DNA from: an uncultured Myxococcales bacterium
GTDB lineage: Bacteria; Myxococcota_A; Bradymonadia; UBA4248
Assembly: GCA_946415045.1 (NCBI GenBank)
Contig: CAMKRB010000004.1
Coordinates: 1-35,451, forward strand
Direction: 5' to 3'
DNA: 35,451 nucleotides
The notes under the pieces are model-generated. The model was not told the origin of the DNA, ran no database searches, and saw only the letters and a list, made by a program, of their open reading frames with translations. The position numbers and the translations under genes were made by a program. Position 1 is the first letter of the stretch. Every line of letters begins with the position of its first letter. Shown here piece after piece: positions 17,022-32,841 of the stretch.

Positions 17022-18266
17022 CTAGTCGGTCGAAGGTTCAGGTTCGCATGCGGAATTGTCGGCTTTGCAAACAGAAGGACAAACATCACCGGCCGTCCAT
17101 CTGCCATTCTCGCACTCGTACATGTAGGAAGCGCTGTCTTCAGAATTCACAGCACATTTGGACTCGCCGGCGGCGCACTCAGCGCAATCGACCATCACGG
17201 AAGCGTCCTCAACGGTAACGCATTTCAGGCCGGAATCGCAGGTGCGTTCAGGTTCCCAGCTCGTGCCATCGGCGGAACATTTGACGATAGCGGTCTCGGA
17301 ATCACATTTCTTTTCGTCCGGTGTGCAGATGACGGAAGAAGTCGCGCACTCACCGGTCGAAGCGTCGCAATCGGCTTCGCATTTATCAGTTTCGGTATAT
17401 TTATATTCTGTACCGTCGCAAGTTGCGCTGTACTTATTGCCATCAGCTTCGATACATTTCTTCGAGCCGCTCTCAGAGCAGGCATTTTCATCAATCGGGC
17501 CGCTGGCTTTGCAGCTCTTGCCATCGGAATCGCAGCCATCGTCGCATTTATCGTCTTCGCCATACTGGAATTCGGAACCATCGCAGGTTGCCGAATAAAC
17601 AACGCCGCTGACTTCGATGCATTTTTTATCGTTCTTGGCGACGCCGCCTTCGCAAGTTTCACCACCGGGATTGGATTTGGGTTCGCAATCGGTGCCGGCG
17701 GCATTGCATTTGCCGGATTCGCAGGTCTCATCGACACGATATTTATTGTCGGCGCAGGTGACTTTGGAAGCCTTGCCACCGTTGAGACCGCTCTTGATGA
17801 TGCAAGTCGTAGCGGTACCTGTGCAGGCCAGGGGATCGGTCACAGGAGTCGGCGAAGTGGACTGATGTCTTTCGGGAGCCGTACCCTTGTCGGCAGGCAG
17901 GCAATAGTAATTGCTGGTGCCGGGAATCCACTCGACGCAGGCCGCACCTTCGGGGCATGTTTCCTTGCATTTTTTACCAGCGGGGCAACCGCAGAAATTA
18001 CCCGAACAGGTTTTGGAATCGGGGATGCAGCGATAGGTGCAAAAAGCATCACTGCTTTCATAACGGCCACAAATGAGGCTGTCGCAATCGAATACGTAAT
18101 CAGCCGCGCATGTGGCGGTTTTCTGCTCGCCCTGTGGCGAACAGGCCTGTTTATAGGCGGTCGTATCAGGAATTGAGCAGGGGCCGTATTCTTCGGGATT
18201 GCAAGCATTCAAGCAAGCGGCAAAACCGACAGCCAAACCTAAACCAGCAAGTAAATGTTTATTCAT
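17022..18266 (-). CDS. Cys-rich lipoprotein with repeated disulfide modules
   Basis: A 414-aa exported protein of unknown function. The start is the ATG at 18266 (MNKHLLAGLG), eight bases after GGAG; an upstream in-frame GTG overlaps that site and is unlikely. A lipoprotein-type signal ends in LNAC. The mature part is almost entirely Cys-rich modules with a Ser/Thr/Pro linker near residue 135-145. The clearest repeat pairs are KKCIEVSGVVYSATCDGSEF and KKCIEADGNKYSATCDGTEY, each followed by a DKC-x(3)-C block. It resembles the Cys-rich lipoproteins at 25762 and 29134 in style rather than by clear homology. It is a single gene with its own promoter and terminator. A surface or adhesive role is inference. 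Confidence 0.78.
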   Translation of the reverse strand: MNKHLLAGLGLAVGFAACLNACNPEEYGPCSIPDTTAYKQACSPQGEQKTATCAADYVFDCDSLICGRYESSDAFCTYRCIPDSKTCSGNFCGCPAGKKCKETCPEGAACVEWIPGTSNYYCLPADKGTAPERHQSTSPTPVTDPLACTGTATTCIIKSGLNGGKASKVTCADNKYRVDETCESGKCNAAGTDCEPKSNPGGETCEGGVAKNDKKCIEVSGVVYSATCDGSEFQYGEDDKCDDGCDSDGKSCKASGPIDENACSESGSKKCIEADGNKYSATCDGTEYKYTETDKCEADCDASTGECATSSVICTPDEKKCDSETAIVKCSADGTSWEPERTCDSGLKCVTVEDASVMVDCAECAAGESKCAVNSEDSASYMYECENGRWTAGDVCPSVCKADNSACEPEPSTD

Positions 18267-18318
18267 TCTGAACACTCCAACGGCGATTAATACAACAAAA
18301 CACCGACGTACCTGTTAC

Positions 18319-24834: not shown

Positions 24835-25036
24835 GAAAGAGAAATCTTGTTCGCGCATTGCGGGCATTCCCCAGCCTGTCCCGACCTCCGGCCAGCCAGC
24901 AAGCAATTATACCGGAATCGGCATCCCGTTGGAAAACACACGCCACAGCCCCGTCAAACCGCGTCCTGGATGGACAATACATGCGCCATAGACGTATGAG
25001 CGTTTAACCATAGAATTGTCGCGAGGATAATGAGAT

Positions 25037-25715
25037 ATGAACAAACGTTATGCCTTTTTAGCAGCAGTTTCGTTAACGCTCTGCGGATGCGATTTGTCAT
25101 CGCCCACCGAAAAAAACGAATGCGCAAGCGCGGGCGAATCGGTAGCAGGCCTGATTGTGAATGATTTGTTCAACGCCTCCGTACCACCGGAGTTTGCAGG
25201 TATTTTCCAGAATGGCTTTTGCCCCGGAGAATACCAGTGTCTTGAATATCATGGGAAAACTGACCAGAAAGCGTGTTACAGATGTCCACAGCACAATCAG
25301 ATCTTCTGTAACAATTCGTGTGTCGAAGGCACTTTTCTCGTCGGATTTGCAACATGTTCTGGATTTACAGGAAGAGAGCCCACAACCGCCAGCTCTATTA
25401 TTTAGTTGCACCTACTGGTACAATCTGGGTGCAAAAGATAGTTCCACCCCCGGGATAAATGATTTTTCTTCCTATTCGGGTCGATTCAACTCCGGTTTTT
25501 ATAGTTTCGACAAGGACAACGCTTCGGCACTGGCAATACAGCAACCGTGTATGGATATCACAATTTTTAGTGATCACACAAGCGAGTGGAAATCAATGAG
25601 TTTTTCACAATTTTCAACCTTTGACTATGACGGCGACGCCGTCACCGCCAATTTTCCTGCATATCATCCGGAGATTCTGGATGAGCTGGAAAAACTGCAT
25701 CGCATTGAACAATGA
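25037..25715 (+). pseudogene. internally deleted, frameshifted copy of the 25762 lipoprotein
   Basis: The first 290 bases encode a lipoprotein N-terminus (MNKR, then LCGCDLSSP ... CNNSCVEG, about 97 residues) that aligns with the first 104 residues of the downstream protein. From about 25325 the homology continues in the next reading frame: ALFSSDLQHVL ... TYWYNLGAKDSS ... NFPAYHPEILDELEKLHRIE aligns with residues 894-1009 of the paralogue (AFFSKKL ... AYWYNLGDKANS ... PFPAYQNEALISVLNTLHRI). About 790 codons are missing and the junction is out of frame; the in-frame product stops at 25405 with an unrelated tail. The upstream ribosome-binding site is intact, so a short lipoprotein could still be made. 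Confidence 0.85.
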
Positions 25716-25761: not shown

Positions 25762-28700
25762 ATGAACAAACGCATTCTCACCTTATTGGCAATATCTGTT
25801 GCAGCCTGCGGCTGTGATTTATCCTCGCCTGTCGATTCAGTCCCGTGTTCCGGGAATGGCGAACCGCTTGCCGGTATCGTGTTTGACAATATCACCGAAG
25901 CCATCAATCCAGCCGATGTCGCAGGAATTACGGGGATGGGATACTGTCCAAAAACCTACAACAATCTGGAACTGTCATGTATCAACTTTAAAGGTTCTGG
26001 CTTCGAAAAAGCATGCTCGCCATGTTCTGAAGACTACAAAATTATGTGCAACAACACATGCGTCGATGCACTGGGCAGAGAACAGGACGGCAAAGGCGAC
26101 AGCCTGAATCATTGCGGCGACTGCAATACCAAATGCAATCCGGTCACCGAAAGATGCGCCGATGGCAAATGCATCGCAAGATGCATCAACAAATGCAGCG
26201 CGGAAGATCCCAATGTTTTGCAGGAATGCGTGTCGACCGGTGAAGAAAGATTCTATGAGGCTCACTGCACTTACGGATGCGTAACGACAGAAACCGGCGC
26301 AGCATGCCGTGAACACGACTGCTCCAGCGAATGCAAGGACAGCGACACACTGCTGATTTGCGGCAAAACGAAATATGAACTTGAAATCCAATGCAAGAAT
26401 GGATGCAGTTCGGAAGGCAGCAACGCCAAATGTAACGAATGTGAAGCCAAATGCGAAGAAGGCACACTCACTCAGTGCGATCCCAATGATCCGCTGGCAG
26501 CGGCGACGACTGTTGTTTGTCCGCTTGGCTGCGCCGACAACAATCAGGAATGCAAGAAATGTGAACCCTCCTGCGCCCCCGATGGCACAAAACAATACGA
26601 ATGTGCCCCGGATAATCCAATTGCAGCTCCGCACGAAATCACATGCAACCACGGGTGTGAGAATAACGCATGCATCGCCTGTGTTTCCGTCTGCACGGAT
26701 GACAAGACACTGAACCAGTGTGATCCGGCCGATCCGCTTGCGCCCATGCAGTCCGTCACATGCAGCCACGGGTGTGACGAAGCCAGCCGTGCGTGCAATG
26801 CATGCGCGCAGCATTGTTCCGAAGATGGGATGACGCTTTTCCAGTGTGATCCGGACGATTCGTTTGCTGCATACCAGGTCGTTTATTGTGATTACGGATG
26901 CAAAGACAACAACTGCGTGCTCGACAGCGACGGCGACGGCGTTCCCGATGAAACCGATATCTGCCAGAATAACGGTAAGCTCAGCACCGGTGACTTTACA
27001 AAAGACGATCCTGAGAGATGCAGCACTTACGAGAGCGACACCAAGACTTTCTATATCTATAACGCCCACAATTTCATTGAGCTCAAGGCGCTGCTCAGCA
27101 CCAATGTGACGCCGTATTTCATCCATATTCAAAACGACGTGAACTTTGGCAATCTCGAAACCACCGAAACCGACGGCCAGTGCATGATTAGCAAGGATCC
27201 ATCGGGTATCACGATTAAGGGTGTTATAATAGAAGGCCATAATCACACGATAAAAGCATTTAAAAATGGCAAACGATGCAGTTTGCCAAATGCGCTGTTT
27301 GACATTTTCGATACGAGCCAGATCAAGGATTTGAACATCGATTATGATGTTACAGGATCGGGCCGTTCGCTGCTCATCAACGAAATCCCGCAGCCCTCTT
27401 ACGAAGAAACGAGTGGCTCATCACAGCTCACCAACATCACCGTGCGCGGCACGCTCACGACGGATGCCGAGGATTATGAAAGCGGTCAGCTGGACTGGGA
27501 GAATAAACCCATCATGGTGCTGCAGCCGGTTGGTGCCTTGGTTGGAAGCATCTCTGGCTACATTCCAAAATTTGGATCCTCCAAATATCAAACGGTCGAG
27601 AACTGTGTGGCAAAAGATGTCCGCATCATTGCGCCCAAATCCAACAATGTCGGCGGTCTGTTTGGCTATTGCAGCGACATCATTTACATTTCGGCATCTG
27701 AACCCCACCGGATCATTTCGGTGCAGGGAAATGAGAATGTCGGTGGTGTCATCGGATCCGGTTCGCTCAACAATGCCAATATTCCCCAAGACGGTGAAAA
27801 CGTTGGCCGTCTAATCGCTGAAGTCGGCAGCGTCAGCGGCATTACAAACGTCGGTGGCTATTTCGGTGCCGGAGAAGTATCGAATGCCATACTCAACATT
27901 GGCAGTGTAAAAGGCGGCGACGACACCCGCAGTGCTGAGAATGTCGCAGGCATTCTGGGCAAAGCGCGCGTATACAATCCCAATTTTGTGGTTACTGTGA
28001 AGAATATTGCAGCCCAGATTGGCAAAATTGAATCCAATGGCGACAATACAGGGCTTTATGTCGGCTTTATGGATGGAGGAAGCATATATTACGAAAACTG
28101 TCATATAGCAGCAGATGCACTGGAATCGACGGGAGACAACGTCGGCATGCTGGCCGGTTATACCCAAAGCACCTGGGAATTCAGTACAGATAAAGTTTTT
28201 GCTGAAGTCGTCGATATGAAAGGCAACAATTACATCAGCGGCGGTATTGGCAAATGTCTGTACGATGAAGAATCATCCTGGGGACTTCGCACGCAGAACA
28301 CAGTTTTGCGAGCAAACATCCATTACAACGATTCAGTTTACAGCGGCATCAGTAATTGTCAGATCGACGATCGCGTCACATCGCTTCAGTTTACAGTCAG
28401 TGCCGTCACAGTCCGCGACAAAAGCAACGCTATAAAACTGAACAATGCATTCTTTTCCAAAAAGCTGACAAAAACGGAAGATACATCCGGAAACAAGCTA
28501 TTCTCTGCATTCCATGCATACTGGTATAACCTGGGCGACAAGGCAAATTCGAAGCCATTTGATGGCTATGAAATTATAGATTCGACGCTGAATGACTCAC
28601 TTGTGAGTTTTTCCGCAGAAGCCAGCAATGGCGTTCGTGACCAGATAAGGGGCTCAAACATAGACAGTTCCTGGGGAACGACCAATTTTACAACCATCGA

Positions 28701-28791
28701 CAAAGACAATACAAACATCACGTATCCGTTCCCTGCATATCAAAACGAGGCGCTGATCAGTGTACTGAACACGTTGCACCGCATTGATTAA
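25762..28791 (+). CDS. large lipoprotein: Cys-rich modules, calcium-type repeat, GLUG-like beta-helix
   Basis: A 1009-aa surface-type protein of unknown function. Signal peptide with lipobox (VAACGC, Cys16 or Cys18), preceded by AAGGAG. Residues about 80-385 are Cys-rich. At least four modules follow the pattern C-x3-C-x(4-6)-L/F-x-QCDP-D-P, then VxCxxGC (QCDPNDPLAAATTVVCPLGC, and QCDPADPLAPMQSVTCSHGC). A thrombospondin-type-3-like Asp repeat (DSDGDGVPDETDICQ) lies at 388-402. Residues about 430-890 look like a right-handed beta-helix with six GLUG-like turns (NVGGLFGY, NVGGVIGSG, NVGGYFGAG, NVAGILGKA and two weaker ones). The C-terminal region is shared with the pseudogene. Adhesion or surface binding is inferred from architecture. 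Confidence 0.85.
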   Translation: MNKRILTLLAISVAACGCDLSSPVDSVPCSGNGEPLAGIVFDNITEAINPADVAGITGMGYCPKTYNNLELSCINFKGSGFEKACSPCSEDYKIMCNNTCVDALGREQDGKGDSLNHCGDCNTKCNPVTERCADGKCIARCINKCSAEDPNVLQECVSTGEERFYEAHCTYGCVTTETGAACREHDCSSECKDSDTLLICGKTKYELEIQCKNGCSSEGSNAKCNECEAKCEEGTLTQCDPNDPLAAATTVVCPLGCADNNQECKKCEPSCAPDGTKQYECAPDNPIAAPHEITCNHGCENNACIACVSVCTDDKTLNQCDPADPLAPMQSVTCSHGCDEASRACNACAQHCSEDGMTLFQCDPDDSFAAYQVVYCDYGCKDNNCVLDSDGDGVPDETDICQNNGKLSTGDFTKDDPERCSTYESDTKTFYIYNAHNFIELKALLSTNVTPYFIHIQNDVNFGNLETTETDGQCMISKDPSGITIKGVIIEGHNHTIKAFKNGKRCSLPNALFDIFDTSQIKDLNIDYDVTGSGRSLLINEIPQPSYEETSGSSQLTNITVRGTLTTDAEDYESGQLDWENKPIMVLQPVGALVGSISGYIPKFGSSKYQTVENCVAKDVRIIAPKSNNVGGLFGYCSDIIYISASEPHRIISVQGNENVGGVIGSGSLNNANIPQDGENVGRLIAEVGSVSGITNVGGYFGAGEVSNAILNIGSVKGGDDTRSAENVAGILGKARVYNPNFVVTVKNIAAQIGKIESNGDNTGLYVGFMDGGSIYYENCHIAADALESTGDNVGMLAGYTQSTWEFSTDKVFAEVVDMKGNNYISGGIGKCLYDEESSWGLRTQNTVLRANIHYNDSVYSGISNCQIDDRVTSLQFTVSAVTVRDKSNAIKLNNAFFSKKLTKTEDTSGNKLFSAFHAYWYNLGDKANSKPFDGYEIIDSTLNDSLVSFSAEASNGVRDQIRGSNIDSSWGTTNFTTIDKDNTNITYPFPAYQNEALISVLNTLHRID

Positions 28792-29133: not shown

Positions 29134-32100
29134 ATGAAAAAAGAGCTTTTGGTTTCAGCTATTTTGTGCGTTTTATGTGCAGCATGCAACGATACGCAAA
29201 CGCCGCAAAAAGCAAACAAACTGACCGCATTGCAGGAGCAGAGCATTCTGTACGGGACGCCGGCGACCGACCAGCCCTATACCGTGTCGTTGTTTAATGC
29301 GGACGTCAACGATCCGCTCTACCGTAAAGCATGCGATCCGGAACTCGTCAACGAATGCAAAAATGCATACGGCTCGAACTGGACATGCGTGGAGAATGGC
29401 GACGGTCCGTTTTGTGCCGAACTGTGTACGGCAGTCGATTCGACCCAATCAACCTGCGTGCAAAGCGGCGATGACTCTATTCTGGCCAGAAATTCTTGCG
29501 TCAACTGGATAGACAGTACAAACATCTGGATGCTGGATCATTCCTATGAGCAAGGCGCATACGATCTTTTGCTGTGCAGAAATCAGTGCAATGCCGACGA
29601 AACGGACTGCGATTCGCAGGGCGCGAGCAAATACCTGCCATGTTCAAGCGATTACATTTCGCTGTGTCAGGATTACGGTTATGTTACGTGTGTCCAAAGC
29701 GCCACTTCGGCCAACTGTGTGGATTCGTGTTCCAGAGCTGGCCAGACGCAAACCGAGTGCTTTAACACGTCGTATGGCCCAACCGTATATACCGAAGTAT
29801 GCACCGATGTCGAAGGTTCATTGTATTACGTCACGACAGATGAAAAAGATTGCGTGAACGCATGCAATTCTGCGGGTACAGCGTGCGATTCTGCGGGAAC
29901 GCGCGTCAACCGTATGCTTAAGGAAACGGTTGCGGGCAATTCCTATTGCAGCGGTACGCTCATCCATCCGCAATGGGTTTTAACCGCCGCACACTGCGTG
30001 GTGAGCGATGATATCGACAACAATCTGCTCAGGATTGGCGTTGGCAACAATGAAAACGAGCTGCTGCCATTCGAAATTGCGGGTGTCGATGAGATTTATC
30101 CGCACACGGGTTATGGAGAATCGGATGGCGACGATATTGCCCTTATCAAGCTGAAATCTCCAATGGATTCGCGCATTGCAGAGCCCGTATTTCCGCTTCC
30201 CAAATGGCTGGCGTTTACGTCACGGGATTTGCCGGCCATGATGGAAAGCAGCGGTTTCGGATTCAACGAGACTGGCGGAAGCGGCGTCAAAAATACCATC
30301 TCGCTCCCCACAAAAGCCTATTGCGGCATCTTTAATTCTTCCGATTCAAGCAGTGGCTGTTATGTCGGAACACTCCATTATGAGGGCTGCCATCCGGAAC
30401 CCATGAGATGCAGTTATTATGGCTACGCCAATGAAACAGTATCCGTCACCATTCCATACAAGACGATTTATGCTGAGATTACAGAGGGCGGTCAGTGCCA
30501 GGGCGATTCAGGCGGCCCGACCTTCTATACAGTTGGCGGAAAACGTTACGTCGTCGGCGTTACAAGCAACGGCGATGCGCAGTGCCGCGGGTACAATATC
30601 GCCACCTCGGTGCAGGATTATTACGACTGGATCATCGGCATCGCTCCCGAAGTTGCCTCGCAATATAAGGAAATCTGCGGCAACGGACTGGATGATGATG
30701 GCAACGGCTATACCGATGATGCCGATCCCGCCTGCCTGAACTGCGGCAATGGCGTGCTGAATTCCGGCGAAATGTGCGACTCCACCAAATTCGCAGACAA
30801 CAAAACCACATGCGTGCAGTGGGATGCCACGCAGTATTCAGCGGGCAATGTTTCCTGCAACGCCGATTGCACCATCAACTACAGCAACTGCATCCAAGCC
30901 AATTATTGCGGCAATGGCATCGTAGACGCAGACGAATCGTGCGACCTGACGAAGTTTGCCGGAAACAAGACTTCGTGCGTCCAGTGGGATTCCAATTATG
31001 CTTCGGGCAATGTCTCGTGCAACGCAGACTGCACCATCAATTATGACAATTGCGTCGACAGCACACCGGTTTGCGGCGATGGCATCGTGAATGGCGACGA
31101 GGTATGCGACGGCTCAAAGTTCCACGATAACCGAAGCGCATGCAAAACCCTGTATCCCGACCTGTATTCCTCAGGTCAGATGGGCTGCACGGATACATGC
31201 ACCTACGATGCATCGGCTTGCGTCAAACTTTGCGGTGATGGCACAGTCAATACGTCCAAAGGCGAGGTCTGCGATCACAGCGACAGCGGCGACAAATTCC
31301 TGACGAGTTCCAATACCTGCGCAAAAGTTGTGGGGCCCGGCTCAACCGGAACCTTAAAATGCGCCGAAAACTGCCTGACGATCGATACCTCGGAATGCAC
31401 TATCCCACCCGAATGCGGCAATGGCGTTATCGAAACCGGTGAAGAATGCGACAGTTCGGCATTCCCCATCGATTCCGTATCATGCGCCGATTACAATTCG
31501 AGCTACATCAGGGGCGAAGTCACATGCAACGCGAATTGCACGATTAACTACAATCTGTGCGAGTTAGCACCGGAACCGCCTTCGTGCGGCGACGGAAAAC
31601 TCGACGATGGTGAACTGTGCGACGGCAACAAGTTCCCAGATAATACCAAAGCATGCAACAAGCTGTTCCCCGATCTCTACGACAAAGGCACCGTTAAATG
31701 CACCGATACATGCGAATATGATACAACGGCATGTGTCCCGCTGTGCGGCAACGGAACCGTTAATATAAGCAAAGGTGAAGCCTGTGACCACAGCGACAGC
31801 GGCGACAAATTCCCCACAAGCGCCAACTCCTGCGCCAAAGTCGTAGGCACGGGTTCTACCGGCACGCTCGCCTGCTCAACCGATTGCAAATCCATCATCA
31901 CCTCGGGCTGCACTGCAGAAACGCTTTGCGGCAATGGCAAACTGGATGGCGATGAACAATGCGACAAATCATTATATGCCGACAACAAAACCTCGTGCGC
32001 CAATTGGGACAGCAAATATACAAGCGGAAACGTCAGCTGCAACAGCGATTGCACCGTCAATTTCGCAGCTTGCAGTGAAGCACCGGTCGAACAATGCGGC

Positions 32101-32841
32101 AATGGCATTCTGGACGCCGGTGAGCCATGCGATCTCAACGCTTTCGCCGACAACAAAACCGCTTGCGCAGATTGGGATGGCAAATATACAAGCGGAAACG
32201 TCTCATGCAACCCCAACTGCACGGTCGATTACAGCGCTTGCAGTGAAGCGCCGTTTGAACTTTGCGGCAACGGCACTCTGGACGACAATGAACCATGCGA
32301 TCAGAACGCTTTCGCCGATAACAAAACCGCTTGCACCGATTGGGACAGCAAATATACAAGCGGAAACGTCAGCTGCAACAACGATTGCACTGTCAATTTC
32401 GCCGCTTGCAGCGAAACGCCGGTCGAACTTTGCGGCAACGGCATTCTGGACGCCGGTGAACCATGCGATTTGAACGATTTCGCCGATAACAAAACCGCCT
32501 GCGCAGATTGGGACGGCAAATATACAAGCGGAAACGTGAGTTGTGCCCTCAACTGCACGGTCGATTACAGCGCTTGCACAGAAAGTGCCGCCCCCGTCGA
32601 AATCTGCGACAATAACCTCGACGACGACGGCAACAACCTGATCGATTGCTACGATCCCGCGTGCAGCAACGACGCCGCATGCGCCAACAACCCCCTGGCC
32701 AATCCGAATGCACCTGTCGCCAAGAGTGTAGCTGACGACTGTTCATCCACACCGCTCTCCTCAAGCCACTCACCATGGCCATTGATTCTGGGCGTGCTTG
32801 GAATCGGTGCCTTCGCAAGACGTCGCCGCGAAAATTCATAA
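29134..32841 (+). CDS. lipoprotein trypsin-like protease with 11 Cys-rich modules and MYXO-CTERM-like tail
   Basis: A 1235-aa protein. I start it at the ATG at 29134 (MKKELLVSAILCVLCAAC), with GGGAG nine bases upstream and a lipoprotein-type signal (Cys18). ILYGTPATDQPYTVSL (38-53) resembles the IVGG start of a mature trypsin. A Cys-rich segment (about 60-255) then interrupts the fold before CSGTLIHPQWVLTAAHC. The triad is His287, Asp334 (DDIALIKL) and Ser459 (CQGDSGGP). A DDDGNGYTDDADPAC motif follows, then eleven modules from 537 to about 1149. These have the form CGNG-x-LD-x-GE-x-CD, about 30 residues, then GNVSCNxDCT-x-N/DY/F-x(2)C. A second Asp motif (DNNLDDDGNNLIDC) precedes the tail: Cys1203, a membrane segment (PWPLILGVLGIGAF) and RRRR. 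This tail fits MYXO-CTERM sorting signals processed by myxosortases. Extracellular proteolysis is well supported; the substrate is unknown. Confidence 0.9.
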   Translation: MKKELLVSAILCVLCAACNDTQTPQKANKLTALQEQSILYGTPATDQPYTVSLFNADVNDPLYRKACDPELVNECKNAYGSNWTCVENGDGPFCAELCTAVDSTQSTCVQSGDDSILARNSCVNWIDSTNIWMLDHSYEQGAYDLLLCRNQCNADETDCDSQGASKYLPCSSDYISLCQDYGYVTCVQSATSANCVDSCSRAGQTQTECFNTSYGPTVYTEVCTDVEGSLYYVTTDEKDCVNACNSAGTACDSAGTRVNRMLKETVAGNSYCSGTLIHPQWVLTAAHCVVSDDIDNNLLRIGVGNNENELLPFEIAGVDEIYPHTGYGESDGDDIALIKLKSPMDSRIAEPVFPLPKWLAFTSRDLPAMMESSGFGFNETGGSGVKNTISLPTKAYCGIFNSSDSSSGCYVGTLHYEGCHPEPMRCSYYGYANETVSVTIPYKTIYAEITEGGQCQGDSGGPTFYTVGGKRYVVGVTSNGDAQCRGYNIATSVQDYYDWIIGIAPEVASQYKEICGNGLDDDGNGYTDDADPACLNCGNGVLNSGEMCDSTKFADNKTTCVQWDATQYSAGNVSCNADCTINYSNCIQANYCGNGIVDADESCDLTKFAGNKTSCVQWDSNYASGNVSCNADCTINYDNCVDSTPVCGDGIVNGDEVCDGSKFHDNRSACKTLYPDLYSSGQMGCTDTCTYDASACVKLCGDGTVNTSKGEVCDHSDSGDKFLTSSNTCAKVVGPGSTGTLKCAENCLTIDTSECTIPPECGNGVIETGEECDSSAFPIDSVSCADYNSSYIRGEVTCNANCTINYNLCELAPEPPSCGDGKLDDGELCDGNKFPDNTKACNKLFPDLYDKGTVKCTDTCEYDTTACVPLCGNGTVNISKGEACDHSDSGDKFPTSANSCAKVVGTGSTGTLACSTDCKSIITSGCTAETLCGNGKLDGDEQCDKSLYADNKTSCANWDSKYTSGNVSCNSDCTVNFAACSEAPVEQCGNGILDAGEPCDLNAFADNKTACADWDGKYTSGNVSCNPNCTVDYSACSEAPFELCGNGTLDDNEPCDQNAFADNKTACTDWDSKYTSGNVSCNNDCTVNFAACSETPVELCGNGILDAGEPCDLNDFADNKTACADWDGKYTSGNVSCALNCTVDYSACTESAAPVEICDNNLDDDGNNLIDCYDPACSNDAACANNPLANPNAPVAKSVADDCSSTPLSSSHSPWPLILGVLGIGAFARRRRENS
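31927..32598 (+). repeat. four tandem 168-bp repeats inside the protease gene
   Basis: Near-identical units begin at 31927, 32095, 32263 and 32431, each 56 codons and each one Cys-rich module. Sequence similarity at the DNA level (for example TTTCGCCGA-AACAAAACC, then AATATACAAGCGGAAACGT in every unit) is much higher than among the first seven modules, which points to recent expansion. Confidence 0.9.

Follow-up and report, generated by a model that had tools for sequence, protein, structure and literature searches.

Domain gain in S1A proteases usually takes place at the ends of the protein. The 37-loop lies inside the catalytic fold. In thrombin and activated protein C, it touches the substrate and affects the choice of the cleavage site (PMC13200511). 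Loop A of HTRA1 is the same 37-loop: it is located more than 30 Å from the active site and is essential for activity, and the active site is locked when an antibody binds this loop (PMC9445180). In DegP of E. coli, loop LA forms inhibitory contacts near the active centre, and its disulfide acts as a control point, with relief by reduction (PMC4339722). A literature search of partial coverage yielded no precedent for an S1A protease whose 37-loop holds a folded domain, which is a weak negative. The S1A family of the protease described here is known; new are a two-module insert in the 37-loop and an undescribed Cys-rich module.

Gene and domain layout

The window, that is the whole analysed stretch of 35,451 nucleotides, stems from an uncultured Myxococcales bacterium (GCA_946415045.1, contig CAMKRB010000004.1). 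An open frame with an ATG start at 29134-32841 on the forward strand encodes a trypsin-like putative lipoprotein of 1235 residues. The preliminary description covered 29134-30630. The start stands; the frame is longer, ends at 32841 and adds some 11 further Cys-rich repeats followed by a MYXO-CTERM-like tail. The features are:

29134-32841 (+), whole gene, trypsin-like putative lipoprotein, 1235 residues; open frame, homologues in four other genomes
29134-29187 (+), signal peptide with the lipobox Cys18 at its end; seen in the sequence, Cys18 invariant in 13 proteins
29188-29244 (+), putative propeptide, residues 19-37; position between the lipobox and the Ile38 N-terminus, presumed cleavage
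29245-29295 (+), activation segment and first barrel strand, residues 38-54; invariant residues, profile match, model strand 50-55
29296-29940 (+), 37-loop insert, residues 55-269, 20 Cys; absent from insert-free paralogues
29332-29613 (+), first 10-Cys module, residues 67-160; Cys spacing, module profile
29641-29889 (+), second 10-Cys module, residues 170-252; Cys spacing, module profile
29941-30663 (+), remaining protease domain, residues 270-510; PF00089 at 3e-23, tryptase and kallikrein folds
29992-29994 (+), catalytic His287 (chymotrypsin 57); invariant
30133-30135 (+), catalytic Asp334 (chymotrypsin 102); invariant
30508-30510 (+), catalytic Ser459 (chymotrypsin 195); invariant
30667-32733 (+), Cys-rich acidic repeats, about 11, which may form a stalk; tandem repeat, weak matches to NF033662 and TIGR02232
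32737-32838 (+), MYXO-CTERM-like tail with Cys1203, a hydrophobic stretch and RRRR; TIGR03901 at 19.4 bits (cut-off 20), sequence

The catalytic residues His, Asp and Ser occur in this order, together with a GDSGGP motif. Invariant across the 13 insert-bearing proteins are I38, G41, P48, L53, F54, H287, D334, D458 and S459. The same holds for Gly453, which occupies the position of Asp189 in the alignment with tryptase; the classic cleavage after Arg or Lys is therefore not expected. Directly before the N-terminal Ile, the 13 proteins have Ser, Ala, Gly or Pro. With neither Arg nor Lys at this position, a trypsin-type cut is not the expected mode of activation. At the sequence level, conservation covers both I38 and D458, the counterpart of Asp194. 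Export probably takes place as a lipoprotein zymogen, which would then be activated by a cleavage before Ile38.

The matches of the C-terminal Cys-rich repeats to the NCBIfam models NF033662 and TIGR02232 are weak and below the curated cut-offs. The tail scores 19.4 bits with TIGR03901 (cut-off 20.0); the Cys, the hydrophobic stretch and the Arg-rich end are all visible in the sequence. In Myxococcus xanthus, MYXO-CTERM tails are cut by a myxosortase, and the published model involves lipidation and type II secretion to the surface (PMC11980579). The Cys-rich stalk and the MYXO-CTERM-like tail would probably retain the protease at the cell surface. The window protein carries both an N-terminal lipobox and the C-terminal tail, and the insert-free trypsins of the genome are similar. 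Before removal of the propeptide, lipobox and tail may thus anchor the protein at both ends. Provided that Cys18 is lipidated as well, the cut at Ile38 would release the N-terminal end, and the protein would then be anchored by its C-terminus alone.

Further Cys-rich proteins are encoded nearby. Directly upstream of the protease gene, 25762-28791 (+) codes for a Cys-rich putative lipoprotein of 1009 residues that matched neither Pfam nor the profile of the 10-Cys module. The adjacent 24990-25715 (+) is an apparent broken, shortened copy of this gene with the middle missing: a lipoprotein start in one frame and an end in another (YWYNLG..., ...LHRIEQ) both resemble 25762-28791. On the reverse strand, 17022-18275 (-) encodes a Cys-rich putative lipoprotein of 417 residues; such proteins are common in this genome.

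The trypsin fold and the insertion site

Residues 38-54 read ILYGTPATDQPYTVSLF. The next element of the fold is C272SGTLIHPQWVLTAAHC288, in which C272 is the counterpart of chymotrypsin C42; 217 residues separate F54 from C272. The preliminary description had proposed a trypsin split by a Cys-rich insert, and this architecture is well supported as a reading of the sequence comparison and the predicted structure. Evidence is provided by the invariant residues I38, G41, P48, L53 and F54, by a profile match and by a model strand at 50-55. The insert sits in the 37-loop (loop A), at chymotrypsin positions of about 34 to 40, between the strands 1 and 2 of the N-terminal barrel. With the activation strand still in its usual position, the fold would close across the insert, which is likewise well supported.

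A first-strand profile was built from columns 1-19 of an alignment of 21 insert-free trypsins. In the window protein, it found residues 38-54 at 6.6 bits, with 5.0 bits for the best of 2600 shuffles, and it had no match just before residue 272. In the homologues, too, the profile matched this segment best, and in none of them was the best match immediately ahead of the counterpart of Cys42; 7 of the 13 proteins score 1.6 bits or less, which is shuffle level on their own.

An AlphaFold2 model was obtained from 28 sequences, the window protein and relatives, with a mean pLDDT of 86.5 and a pTM of 0.68, which suggests that the domain orientation is uncertain. The model has short bridges at 42-43 and a first strand at 50-55; the insert follows, with a low-confidence coil at 259-265, and then a strand at 270-278. 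Trypsins have such elements at about 20-21, 28-33 and 40-48, to which the bridges and the two strands presumably correspond. A replacement strand before residue 270 was not seen in the model. A normal first strand just before residue 272 would have spoken against the earlier proposal; the model places the low-confidence linker 259-265 there. In a Foldseek search with the whole predicted model, tryptase and plasma kallikrein were found at an E value of 1.9e-14 and a probability of 1.00; the match concerns the trypsin double-barrel fold as a whole and does not tell where strand 1 packs.

The host genome has nine PF00089 genes including 29134-32841: seven encode insert-free trypsins and one is HtrA-like by sequence. 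The nearest insert-free trypsin (L009/L010, contig C40) is 49% identical over the aligned residues and has the short loop AIVNGSRDLVVAHKAVVGLFENETVAVNNCKKNYLFCTGTLIHP. An alignment with insert-free trypsins had been proposed as a check. It agreed with the split: in the insert-free paralogues, a segment like 38-54 directly precedes the same Cys, the equivalent of C272.

A different explanation is that the trypsin is not split at all: the resemblance of the ILYG start would be due to chance, and the insert would be an N-terminal Cys-rich region before a truncated trypsin. The Pfam match could be read in this way. PF00089 matches residues 269-500 at 3e-23 with 83.2 bits (curated cut-off 20.6), and the alignment begins only at profile position 24. 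Such a late start is also expected for a first strand set apart by the insert, and normal trypsins of the same genome likewise start at profile position 22-24. The weak first-strand scores in about half of the homologues favour an unsplit protein. Against it stand the five invariant residues of the segment, its score above all shuffles, the predicted strand at 50-55 with none before 270, and the insert-free paralogues, in which this segment stands immediately in front of the equivalent Cys. A chance resemblance is considered very improbable, and the split trypsin is the reading followed here.

A phylogenetic tree was built on the protease part with the insert removed. All 13 insert-bearing proteins were placed together, inside a strongly supported clade (100/99) with three insert-free trypsins as further members. 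The branch that sets the insert-bearing proteins apart from the rest had a support of 76/44 and was seen in 73% of the bootstrap trees. This grouping among insert-free relatives suggests, with modest support, a single insertion event as the simplest reading of the sequences. In a UBA4248 relative, contig DGWW01000237.1 carries a cluster of neighbouring trypsin genes, some of which have the insert and some of which lack it; this arrangement suggests tandem duplication.

The 10-Cys module and its distribution

The insert comprises 215 residues, 55-269, with exactly 20 Cys. The earlier estimate of about 20 Cys in repeated modules thus became precise: they form two tandem 10-Cys copies with near-identical spacing, 8-10-9-4-10-14-26-4-7 in module 1 and 8-8-9-4-10-14-17-4-7 in module 2. 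In the alignment of the 13 insert-bearing proteins, 18 of the 20 Cys are invariant and the remaining two are present at 90% or more. Residues other than Cys are highly variable among the homologues. A joint loss of C2 and C4 was observed in one module of one homologue (L032), the single case among the trypsin inserts and too thin a basis for assigning disulfide pairs. The insert had no match among the Pfam and NCBIfam models, inhibitor families included, and none among PDB sequences. The fold search yielded noise only, with best E values of 0.36 in the PDB and 0.18 in viral models. Modelled alone from seven sequences, the insert reached a mean pLDDT of 85.6, and each module was predicted as a helix followed by several strands.

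Homologues of the insert were searched in eight genomes of the same family. Twelve were found, spread over four further genomes of the genus, all in trypsins and at the same in-frame site; neither chance nor faulty assembly thus accounts for the insert. The agreement of separate MAGs also led to the rejection of a frameshift or an assembly artefact. A scan over bacteria and archaea with one genome per species yielded 479 relatives; the comparison covers the best 80 loci among them. Four of these loci, with six genes, have the insert, and they come from Myxococcales bacterium UBA4248 or from MAGs of goat and roe deer omasum; the contigs are largely the same as those of the genus homologues already counted. 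In the best 80 of the 479, the distance from the Ile to AHC is 241-252 residues with the insert, versus mostly 34-65 in insert-free trypsins from many phyla. A few insert-free trypsins of this set have no clear Ile motif, and their strand is still located at the normal distance. The lineage of the insert-bearing proteases is ruminant-gut Myxococcota.

A profile of the double module matched 6 of 379 genomes of the phylum at an E value of 1e-5, all from the same genus. One of the six (G006) has the module, and no insert-bearing trypsin was seen in it. A genome of another genus of the family (G007) had a weak module match at 3.1e-5. As far as searched, this points to an undescribed module confined to one lineage of gut Myxococcota.

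Related modules, single or tandem, occur in non-protease, lipoprotein-like proteins of the same genus, including a protein of 152 residues with one module. Eight such module-bearing proteins had no Pfam match above the cut-off. In the genome of the window protein itself, two long lipoprotein-like proteins (contigs C77 and C47) contain several tandem relatives of the 10-Cys module and lack a recognised enzyme domain. Because it is also found in proteins without a protease, the module looks like a general extracellular unit that was recruited into the protease.

Role of the insert and comparison with known proteases

A tandem pair of 10-Cys modules was probably inserted once into the 37-loop of an S1A protease with an intact triad. 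The 37-loop precedents of thrombin, activated protein C, HTRA1 and DegP imply that a folded domain at this site could be an exosite or a switch. For this putatively surface-held S1A protease, a built-in exosite is the most likely role of the inserted modules, and it is held with slightly more than even confidence. A disulfide-stabilised binding domain near the active site would capture or orient a substrate or a surface. Modules of this type are also used in proteins in which no enzyme domain was recognised, as would suit a binding unit of general use. Together with the missing match to an inhibitor family and the predicted flexibility of the linker after the insert, the use without proteases favours the exosite.

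The insert could also be a built-in inhibitor or zymogen lock that covers or distorts the active site until a ligand, a cut or a disulfide reduction releases it. The Cys-stabilised nature of the insert and the loop precedents agree with this: the disulfide-bearing inhibitory loop of DegP (PMC4339722), and the locking of HTRA1 through its bound loop A (PMC9445180). No Pfam inhibitor family or PDB fold matched the insert, however, and its modules are present in proteins without a protease to inhibit. In the model, the C-terminal linker is predicted to be flexible, and the domain orientation would not be fixed. A lock is rated as less likely than the exosite. A passive spacer or stability element, which shields the exposed loop from gut proteolysis or adds bulk and has no specific partner, is rated as improbable. 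The strong variation between the Cys of the insert would suit it, as would the many Cys-rich repeats already in the window protein and the wide distribution of Cys-rich units in the genus. A site within the catalytic fold, at a functional loop, is nevertheless costly for a spacer, and both modules are kept in all 13 proteins. A speculative idea of low probability goes further: the 10-Cys module would represent a small, disulfide-stabilised fold of a new type, and its insertion into the 37-loop would have created a ligand- or redox-gated enzyme, a switch by domain insertion in place of a passive binding tag. The exosite remains the preferred role. A folded two-module domain inside the catalytic barrel and insert-free paralogues in the same genome provide a comparison for the control of activity and substrate choice by the 37-loop.

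The closest described systems share different parts of this architecture. MYXO-CTERM proteins and myxobacterial Cys-rich repeat proteins (TIGR03901, TIGR02232, NF033662) are alike in the C-terminal Cys-rich repeats and the tripartite tail; none of these models matches the 10-Cys insert module. HtrA/DegP proteases with a long loop LA have extra sequence in the same 37-loop, which in DegP contains a disulfide and is regulatory (PMC4339722, PMC9445180). They belong to a different branch of the trypsin fold. LA of DegP is a loop, whereas the window protein has two modules that are predicted to be folded, and Pfam detected no PDZ domain after its protease. The S1A trypsin-like proteases, including tryptase and plasma kallikrein as well as the host's own trypsins without the insert, share the fold, the triad, the activation strand and the Cys42-Cys58 and Cys191-Cys220 positions with the window protein. 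It differs from them by the 215-residue insert in the 37-loop, a Gly in place of Asp189, and a residue other than Arg or Lys before the Ile.
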